Below are positions 8,573-17,306 of a stretch of 49,673 bases of DNA, in pieces. Source of the stretch: Anaerolineales bacterium (GTDB taxonomy: Bacteria; Chloroflexota; Anaerolineae; Anaerolineales; UBA11579); contig JAJTXV010000008.1 of NCBI GenBank assembly GCA_021463845.1, positions 1 to 49,673 on the forward strand, given 5' to 3'. How positions within the stretch are numbered: the stretch's first letter is position 1; the number at the start of each line of letters is the position of its first letter. Position numbers and translations under genes: made by a program. Below the pieces are notes generated by a model. That model saw nothing but the letters and a program-made list of their open reading frames with translations. It did not search any database and was not told the DNA's origin.

Positions 8573-9016
8573 TTAGTTCTTCGAAGCCAGGTCCACGCCG
8601 GAGAAGCTGCCCGGGTCAGTCTTCATGGCCTGGTCAATGCGGCTGCGGACTTTGACCCAGGTCTCCTGCGGCCAGATCTCGAACTGGTCACTGATGCCGA
8701 CCAGCTTGACCTCGGAGCCGAGCTTGAACTCATCCCGCAGGAACTGCGGGATGAGGATGCGGCCGCTGCCATCGGGCTCCACGCGCTCGGCCTGGCCTGT
8801 GATGACGCGGCGCAAGTCACGCACCTTGGGATCGGTGATGCTCAGCGCCTCCAGGTTGCGCACCATGGCAGCGAAGGCATCCGGCAGCATGACCACCAGG
8901 TTGCCATCCAGCCCGCGCGTAATGACCCCGCCCTGCGCGAGCAGCTGGCGGAAGCGGGCCGGCACGGTGAGGCGGCCCTTGTCATCGATGGAGTGAGAAT
9001 ATTCGCCCAGAAACAT
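8573..9016 (-). CDS. mraZ: Transcriptional regulator MraZ
   Basis: DNA-binding regulator at the head of the dcw cluster. It forms a ring of AbrB-like beta-beta-alpha-beta folds and represses its own operon in several bacteria. The start at 9016 (MFLGEYSHSIDDKGRL) is the conserved family N-terminus, so in-frame sequence further upstream, which runs through the operator, was rejected. At 147 residues it has normal length. Both SpoVT/AbrB-type half-repeats are visible: DDKGRLTVPARFR near residue 12 and PDGSGRILIPQFLRDEF near residue 90. Likely binding repeats lie 50-85 bases upstream. Confidence 0.95.
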   Translation of the reverse strand: MFLGEYSHSIDDKGRLTVPARFRQLLAQGGVITRGLDGNLVVMLPDAFAAMVRNLEALSITDPKVRDLRRVITGQAERVEPDGSGRILIPQFLRDEFKLGSEVKLVGISDQFEIWPQETWVKVRSRIDQAMKTDPGSFSGVDLASKN

Positions 9017-9044
9017 AAGTTCTATTTGTGGGTTAATGGCAGAA

Positions 9045-9064
9045 CGCCGGGATAGTTCCCGGCG
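9045..9064 (-). promoter_or_regulatory. Stem-loop in the mraZ leader
   Basis: CGCCGGGA (9045-9052), a TAGT loop and TCCCGGCG (9057-9064) form a perfect 8-bp stem. It lies in the untranslated leader between the GTGG repeats and the mraZ start. It could stabilise the transcript or modulate translation. No T-run follows. Confidence 0.55.
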
Positions 9065-9100
9065 CTCCACTTTATGCCACTTCGTCCCACAAGTCCCCAC
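9065..9100 (-). promoter_or_regulatory. Probable MraZ operator: four GTGG repeats at 10-bp spacing
   Basis: On the minus strand GTGG starts four times, complementary to CCAC at 9067-9070, 9077-9080, 9087-9090 and 9097-9100. That is exactly one helical turn apart (GTGGGGACTT, GTGGGACGAA, GTGGCATAAA, GTGGAGCGCC). MraZ proteins are known to bind direct repeats of TGGG-type boxes separated by 5 bp ahead of their own gene. The array begins right after the -10 element, so bound MraZ would block transcription initiation or early elongation. Confidence 0.82.
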
Positions 9101-9128
9101 AGTATACGCTAAATCCCCCACAATGCAA
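9101..9128 (-). promoter_or_regulatory. Predicted sigma-70-type promoter of the dcw operon
   Basis: On the minus strand TTGCAT (9128-9123) and TATACT (9106-9101) are separated by 16 bases. The start site would fall in the first GTGG repeats, about 80 bases before the mraZ start codon. An extra TGGGG lies inside the spacer and another at about 9137-9141. Confidence 0.6.
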
Positions 9129-9172
9129 GCATTTGGCCCCACGCAGAATTAATCCATTGGTACTAGCAACCT

Positions 9173-9315
9173 AACCACAAGGCACAAAGAACACAAAGTC
9201 AAATCTTTAGAGATTGCTTTTATCTGTGTCCATCTGTGGAGGATTTGCCTTTGAAGTGGCGGCTTAACCGCAAGAGCACAAAGGAATGCTTTGTGCTCTT
9301 TGTGTCTTTGTGGTT
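9173..9315. repeat. Inverted pair of CACAAAG-type intergenic repeats
   Basis: AACCACAAGGCACAAAG... (9173-9198) reads back, inverted and imperfectly, as ...CTTTGTGTCTTTGTGGTT (9289-9315). Inside the right copy GAGCACAAAG/CTTTGTGCTC forms a 10-bp hairpin (9274-9298, loop GAATG). A stretch at 9221-9240 (ATCTGTGTCCATCTGTGG) resembles a second common intergenic motif. No gene is seen between 9143 and 9327. Confidence 0.6.
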
Positions 9316-9327
9316 GCTTTTCCGTAG

Positions 9328-16011: not shown

Positions 16012-17037
16012 ATGAGCAAAGAAAAAGACAACGCATTGCAGAACGCCCTGGAGCAGATCACCAAGCGCTGGGGCGAAGGCAGCATCATGCGCCTGGGTGA
16101 ATCCGAAAGCATGGAGGTCGACGCCATCCCCACCGGCTCGCTCTCGCTCGACCTGGCGCTGGGCGTGGGCGGCGTGCCGCGCGGGCGCGTGACCGAGATC
16201 TACGGCCCCGAATCCTCCGGCAAGACCACCATCTGCCAGCACATCGTGGCCGAGGTGCAGCAACAAGGCGGCACGGCCGCCTATGTGGACATGGAGCACG
16301 CCCTCGACCCCAACTATGCCGCCAAGTGCGGCGTGGACGTCGAAAAATTGCTGGTCTCGCAGCCCGACACCGGCGAGCAGGCCCTCGAGATCGCCGAAGC
16401 GCTGGTGCGCTCCGGCGCGGTGGACGTGGTGGTGGTCGACTCGGTGGCGGCCCTGGTGCCCCGCTCCGAGATCGAGGGTGACATGGGGGACGCCACCATG
16501 GGCATGCAAGCCCGCCTGATGTCGCAGGCGCTGCGCAAGCTCTCCGGCGTCATTCGTCAGACGAATACGGCGGTGGTCTTCACCAACCAGCTGCGCCAGA
16601 AGATCGGCGTCATGTTCGGCAATCCGGAAACGACCACCGGCGGCATGGCCCTCAAGTTCTACGCCTCGGTGCGCATGGATGTGCGCCGCATCCAGTCTAT
16701 TAAAGAAGGCCAGGATATCGTAGGCAGCCGCACCCGGGTGCGCATCGTCAAAAACAAGGTTTCGGCTCCCTTCCGCACTGCCGAATTTGACATCATGTAT
16801 AATGAAGGCATATCCAAGGCTGGCGACCTGCTTGACTTGGCTAGCCAAATGGACATCATCACCAAGCGCGGCTCGCACTACTTGTACGGCGAGGAGCGAT
16901 TGGGGCAAGGCCGTGAGAATGCGAAAGCCTTCTTGCGGGAGAACAAGAACCTGGCCGCCGAGATCGAACAAAAGGTGCGTGCCCAGGCAGACCCCAACAT
17001 GCTGTTGGGTCCTGCCGAGCCCACTGACGAAGAATGA
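16012..17037 (+). CDS. recA: Recombinase RecA
   Basis: ATP-dependent strand-exchange protein of homologous recombination, which also triggers LexA self-cleavage. The 341 residues contain the Walker A motif GPESSGKT (65-72), the MAW-like [11 protein letters not shown] context, Walker [11 protein letters not shown], loop L1 region [18 protein letters not shown], and the ATTTGG-like [14 protein letters not shown]. The C-terminal tail is short and acidic (PTDEE). Only a weak GAAAGAGA ribosome binding site precedes the ATG. A TACACT at 15983-15988 could be the -10 element, but no convincing -35 or SOS box was found in the 264-base divergent gap. Confidence 0.98.
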
Positions 17038-17075: not shown

Positions 17076-17306
17076 CAACTGACTTCTGGACGATGCCTTC
17101 TCCCTGAACGGAGCGGGCGGGCTGATACGTACAAACGCTAGGCACATGATCTCACTCGCGCACCTGTGTACCGCACTTAAAAGGGACCCCCTGCGCCTGT
17201 AAACGCATCTACACTCGGCCTGGGCCGTAGTGTGCCGTAGCACCATCAGCAACAATCCTCAGAACCAGCCAAAGCAGCCGCGGCCCGGGCCGAACGGCTG
17301 TTTTTT
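17076..17306 (+). other. Structured intergenic stretch ahead of recX, possible small RNA or leader
   Basis: The stretch has no credible gene. It contains several stem-forming segments: CTCC/GGAG at 17100-17114, and ACACTCGGCC paired with GGCC(GT)AGTGT at about 17210-17232. It ends in a terminator-like hairpin with T6 directly before recX. It lies between the recA terminator and that hairpin, the layout of a short independent RNA or an attenuated leader. No known RNA family was recognised. Confidence 0.3.
17275..17306 (+). terminator. Terminator-like hairpin directly upstream of recX
   Basis: CAGCCG (17275-17280) pairs with CGGCTG (17295-17300). The loop contains the self-complementary CGGCCCGGGCCG, and six T residues follow. 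The recX ATG is only seven bases beyond the T-run, so this may act as an attenuator or end an upstream RNA. Confidence 0.65.

Follow-up and report, generated by a model that had tools for sequence, protein, structure and literature searches.

The promoter of mraZ in an Anaerolineales bacterium carries four GTGG boxes that lie exactly 10 bp apart on the minus strand, and this array is very probably an operator through which MraZ would repress its own promoter, a reading to which we give a probability of roughly nine in ten. It is based on observations within the window (the whole stretch of 49,673 nucleotides analysed here), in the host genome and in related genomes, namely the sequence of the boxes, their uniqueness in the genome, how they are conserved, phased and placed, and the MraZ gene beside them, from which we infer binding and repression by MraZ at the array. 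Such an operator is of an already known kind, and its fourth box is ordinary. What is added here over the known operator is a composite kept across the order, in which the MraZ array is combined with a covarying stem and a LexA-type box in the mraZ leader.

The array at the mraZ promoter

Read on the minus strand, the region runs as TTGCAT, 16 bp, TATACT, GTGGGGACTT, GTGGGACGAA, GTGGCATAAA, GTGGAG, a stem-loop, TTAA and TAGAAC-TT-ATG (Table 1), the promoter at mraZ and the dcw genes being recognised by sequence only. The earlier note had placed CCAC on the plus strand at 9067, 9077, 9087 and 9097, TATACT against the first box and TTGCAT 16 bp further upstream, all of which is correct; the two further G-rich boxes that it reported in and above the promoter are GTGGGG, starting 21 and 42 bp upstream of box 1. 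Its description of the fourth box as degenerate and notable did not hold, since box 4 (AAAGTGGAG) fully matches the consensus AAAGTGG of 225 aligned boxes from the relatives, and four is the commonest number of boxes in Anaerolineales as well as the number described for the MraZ site of B. cenocepacia (PMC7761207). Box 1 begins 84 nt before the mraZ ATG, so that, with this ATG as the start, the array sits in the core promoter and the leader.

Table 1. Features of the mraZ promoter, leader and gene, and the best LexA-type site of the window.
Feature	Position	Strand	Basis
Putative MraZ box 1, GTGG	9097..9100	(-)	sequence, spacing, conservation
Putative MraZ box 2, GTGG	9087..9090	(-)	sequence, spacing, conservation
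Putative MraZ box 3, GTGG	9077..9080	(-)	sequence, spacing, conservation
Putative MraZ box 4, GTGG	9067..9070	(-)	sequence, spacing, conservation; last G also begins leader stem
-10 TATACT, abutting box 1	9101..9106	(-)	sequence; TANNNW hexamer abuts first box in 53/57 relatives with array
-35-like TTGCAT, 16 bp from -10	9123..9128	(-)	sequence; CTTGC at same place in many relatives (by eye)
Upstream GTGG, 21 bp before box 1, in -35/-10 spacer	9118..9121	(-)	sequence; relatives
Upstream GTGG, 42 bp before box 1, above -35	9139..9142	(-)	sequence; relatives
Leader stem-loop GAGCGCCGGGA-ACTA-TCCCGGCGTTC	9042..9067	(-)	fold; conservation; covariation
LexA-type box GAAC-TTAT-GTTT straddling mraZ ATG, weakened right half	9011..9022	(-)	matrix score 7.4
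mraZ, 147 aa, two MraZ domains, ATG at 9016	8573..9016	(-)	PF02381 9.5e-28, 2 stretches; translation
Best LexA-type site of window, GAACGGCTGTTT	17292..17303	(+)	score 12.3, rank 1; just before recX-like gene, behind recA (genes named by eye)

Within the window the four-box pattern has a single occurrence, and 100 dinucleotide shuffles gave none. Across the 2.33 Mb host genome, the three-box pattern was found at the mraZ site only, as two overlapping matches (reversed control: 0), so that by this pattern the operator has a single target; a MraZ regulon elsewhere in the host genome was rejected, as no other place has three boxes. Directly downstream of the array lies a gene with two MraZ/AbrB-like domains, whose sequence matches the structure entries 1n0e, 9qlr, 9sx6 and 9qlg and whose two domains are the only MraZ matches in the host genome (PF02381 profile search). 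It is followed by mraW, an unassigned ftsL-sized ORF and a penicillin-binding protein gene, which confirms the dcw order. Together with the conservation described below, this gene supports the interpretation as a probable MraZ operator put forward in the earlier note. One relative has a second MraZ-like gene (L092, G033:C1:2401631-2401798), and further partial MraZ matches were found in G003, G039 and G041.

The MraZ operator of E. coli is reported (Eraso 2014) to lie next to the mra promoter and to consist of three direct repeats of TGGG which, separated by 5 nt, likewise recur every 10 bp; the window array shares this period and has four boxes in place of three. The operator described for B. 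cenocepacia lies downstream of the -10, covers the transcription start and has four repeats of 7 nt spaced by 3 nt, and an EMSA of MraZ on the operator fragment is described with it (PMC7761207), and the window array agrees with this operator from another phylum in number, 10-bp period and place. The hairpin and the LexA-type box of the Anaerolineales leader, in contrast, do not appear in the part of the B. cenocepacia operator description consulted (PMC7761207). The Mollicutes site, quoted as the three repeats (AAAGTGKN3)3 and bound by MraZ as an octamer (PMC5282649; site also in PMC8475190), has the same 10-bp period and a core, AAAGTG[G/T], that the consensus AAAGTGG fits. In M. genitalium, mraZ is reported to be the one place in the genome that carries the motif, and mraW and ftsZ go up when MraZ is lost (PMC8475190); the single three-box site of the host genome gives the same picture.

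Conservation across Anaerolineales and Chloroflexota

A PF02381 match was present in 60 of 61 genomes (the host and 60 others), and the main sample comprised 60 mraZ upstream regions, those of the window and of 59 relatives with such a match. Conserved repeats upstream of mraZ in close relatives, the check named in the earlier note, were found: with one mismatch allowed per box, at least three boxes are present in 57/60 Anaerolineales genomes and in 36/38 genera, and 40 of the 57 arrays have four. Counted as chains of exact GTGG, the same 60 regions contain five boxes in 2 cases, four in 23, three in 19, two in 14 and one in 2. Pairs of GTGG at a distance of 10 number 133 against a shuffled mean of 0.62, with 86 pairs at 20 and 39 at 30 (shuffles about 0.6). 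A period of 9 or 11 bp was rejected, with zero pairs at either distance and no chain of two in any of the 60 regions. Against the operator reading counts that no three-box chain was found in the relatives G031, G056 and G060.

The pattern extends to genera that had not been seen before: of 30 further genera held out, 28 had MraZ (2 gave no match) and 26 were readable (G244 and G336 had no readable start), and at least three boxes were found in 25/26. Outside the order, 60 loci from other Chloroflexota served as an outgroup (3 dropped, 57 readable), of which 38/57 have three or more exact boxes; the 10/57 without two exact boxes in register count against the operator reading.

GTGG also recurs above the array. 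Among 53 relatives with a located -10, it lies 20-22 bp before box 1 in 24 and 40-43 bp before it in 20, and GTGG pair distances of 21, 31-32, 41-42, 51-52 and 62 are likewise in excess (n=60). Lying two and four helical turns from box 1, these upstream boxes face the same side of the DNA as the main array. Both are present in 5/10 members of the host genus (the host, G001, G002, G007 and G008). In one relative (L059, G028), at least seven GTGG boxes are grouped around the promoter, the main array holding five and the -35/-10 spacer two. Separately, positions 9165-9325 of the window, between the mraZ promoter and a deacetylase gene, hold dense short CACAAAG/CTTTGTG repeats in both orientations, which look like a small repeat element.

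Stem-loop and LexA-type box in the mraZ leader

Folding predicts a strong hairpin whose 5' arm begins in box 4. A stem of at least 7 bp lies within the last 70 nt of 57/60 leaders, compared with 4 to 11 in five shuffled sets, and it ends 23-29 nt before the ATG in 55 of the 57 leaders that have it. In alignment A1, pairing holds in 88.2% of cells over the nine pairs, 7 of which show a change on both sides, and the covariation score of 0.260 exceeds the 0.187 of the shuffles (0/500 as high), a control that ignores relatedness. Sliding the pairing by one column lowers the score to 0.155 or 0.104; a slide of +2 gave 32 versus 29 cells with both-side changes, i.e. as many. The stem was found in 23/26 readable held-out genomes and, at about the shuffled rate, in 12/57 leaders of the outgroup. 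As a structure, the leader stem is thus well supported. Rfam gave no match to the leader up to E 5, and two chance-level matches further upstream. In family f15, G037 and G326 (L337) have neither leader stem nor start-codon box, and G050 has both. Two other ideas about the leader were rejected by eye: a small upstream ORF ending in TAG before the ATG, whose frame is not kept because the loop lengths differ by other than threes, and a pairing between the GTGG boxes and a CCCAC close to the start, which folds of the host genus show but the family does not keep.

It is quite possible that the stem is an RNA feature with no regulatory role of its own, such as a 5' end stabiliser of the dcw transcript, which would be compatible with the MraZ operator. 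In the window no U-run follows the stem, which is therefore not an intrinsic terminator there, and its pairing is kept while its sequence changes, both in line with a stabiliser; the nearly fixed distance between stem and start codon, however, suggests a constraint beyond stability.

Across the order, the mraZ start is covered by the motif GAAC-NNAT-GTTY. Bases -6 to -3 are GAAC in 49/60 and GCAC in 8/60 leaders, and bases +3 to +6 are GTTC or GTTT. The core GAAC-N4-GTTC is that of the Gram-positive type of LexA/SOS box in its B. subtilis form (PMC4234289), and the identical core is found in the promoters of host lexA, recA and ssb, while most relatives have it at the start of mraZ. Unlike the B. 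subtilis-type box, the mraZ copy straddles the start codon, and the copy in the window ends in GTTT. GAACnnnnGTTT is among the LexA motifs used for C. difficile (PMC4234289).

The mraZ sites were scored with a LexA matrix built from 46 lexA boxes alone, with no mraZ site included; 50 lexA loci had been fetched, of which 46 were readable and 4 were dropped, and G015, G034, G047, G059 and G060, which have strong lexA matches, are not in the set. Exact GAAC-N4-GTTC occurs in 44 of these 46 promoters. With this matrix, the best score falls at this one offset in 58/60 mraZ leaders, and 43/60 mraZ sites score within the lexA range. Among the held-out genomes, 23/26 sites are in that range and 25/26 have GAAC at the same place. 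In a set of 80 named loci, GAAC occurs in 54 and GCAC in 16, although these overlap the main sample and do not count as independent. The box in the window is weaker: its score of 7.4 ranks second of 49,654 window positions, yet lies below all 46 lexA boxes (12.9-21.4), and this weak form is shared by 6/10 genomes of the host genus. The top-ranking site, before the recX-like gene, supports the matrix.

Host lexA lies at G000:C15:226608, with its box 91 bp upstream of the LexA match, and GAAC-N4-GTTC also lies upstream of recA, at 55 bp, and of ssb, at 84 bp (both named by eye). Two recA-like genes, named by eye from their translations, are present in the host, one in the window at 16012-17037, followed by the recX-like gene, and one at about 166171 on G000:C1 (L096), with the LexA-type box 55 bp upstream. 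The word GAACN4GTTC seems to be avoided in the host genome, which has 21 occurrences on each strand where the reversed control pattern has 55. A LexA_DNA_bind match was obtained in 290/293 Anaerolineales genomes; of the three without, G037 lacks the mraZ box and G031 and G288 have it. With lexA nearly universal, its loss is not usable as a test of the box.

A rather unlikely alternative is that the GAAC before the ATG belongs to an RNA leader element (stem-loop, TTAA, spacer, GAAC, AUG) setting mraZ translation and is not a LexA site, GTTY being only the Met-Phe start. The box's right half does coincide with the Met-Phe codons of MraZ, and TTC:TTT at codon 2 is 40:20 versus 264:175 at the other mraZ Phe codons (P 0.40), so that the right half needs no selection. 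The two leader elements are, in addition, specific to the order (GAAC or GCAC at -6 to -3 in 57/60 inside and 0/57 outside; the stem contrast is given above), the distance from hairpin to GAAC is nearly fixed, and the GCAC of eight leaders is off the LexA consensus. On the other hand, GCAC also occupies the position of the lexA box in one genome (G006), and the mraZ motif with its flanking A matches the lexA promoter box of the same genomes. Neither is GAAC a common feature of start codons: at this place the 45 other ORF starts of the window have GAAC in none and GCAC in one, and of 42 ATGTTY in the window only that of mraZ is preceded by GAAC. In the outgroup, moreover, a complete GAACN4GTTC occurs away from the start codon, within -200 to +12 of mraZ, in 6/57 leaders compared with 0.17 expected, four of the six at most 50 bp from the start. 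Taken at this level, LexA control of mraZ is likely across Anaerolineales, and it is uncertain in the organism of the window itself.

A link between the SOS response and mraZ has been proposed before, for a mraZ homologue from a gut metagenome, where SOS control was predicted and B. subtilis LexA binds the site in an EMSA (PMC3998124). That case likewise has a LexA-type site at mraZ; it concerns other organisms and, in the portion of the report consulted, is not connected with MraZ boxes or with a hairpin in the leader. Counting against the LexA reading, mraZ mRNA of C. glutamicum falls rather than rises on ciprofloxacin (PMC5055667). Searches of the open literature gave, judged by title, nothing on Chloroflexota for LexA, mraZ and SOS, and nothing on mraZ among the matches listed for the Chloroflexi LexA binding motif or SOS response.

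A proposed switch for the dcw operon

For the array itself, a chance G-rich repeat or a site of some other repeat-binding factor is very improbable: GTGG is short and the genome rich in G+C, but the array was absent from all shuffles, is unique in the genome and keeps its register across 15 families of Anaerolineales.

Returning to the MraZ operator, we propose that an oligomeric MraZ ring would grip the DNA from one face, meeting one of the four AAAGTGG boxes at each helical turn. Beginning at the -10 on its downstream side, the contact would span the transcription start, reach into the leader and so block RNA polymerase, and the boxes at -21 and -42, present in under half of the relatives, may extend it across the promoter. 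MraZ would thereby repress its own promoter and hence the first one serving the genes for division and the cell wall, namely mraZ, mraW, the ftsL-sized ORF and the penicillin-binding protein gene. MraZ is described as an activator as well as a repressor in some species, so the sign of the regulation here is not certain.

Downstream of the array follows a second conserved layer, the stem-loop that starts in box 4 and the LexA-type box over the start codon; through the latter, MraZ and its operon would rise on DNA damage. On this basis, we hypothesise, with the odds evenly poised, that the dcw operon of Anaerolineales is a two-regulator switch, with MraZ at the phased operator round the transcription start, LexA over the mraZ start codon and the covarying stem between both. 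Damage would remove LexA, MraZ and the operon would rise until MraZ shuts the operon, and MraZ itself, in place of a separate SOS inhibitor of the SulA or YneA kind, would hold division back.

In summary, the sequences settle that a large part of Chloroflexota retains the MraZ repeat of one helical turn. Should the LexA reading hold, the SOS response would have a conserved and direct connection with the master operon of cell division, in a group for which hardly any genetics exists, and the reading would add a second lineage to the one earlier SOS-mraZ prediction found, that from the gut metagenome (PMC3998124). It would also offer a testable role for MraZ, the physiological signal of which is unclear.
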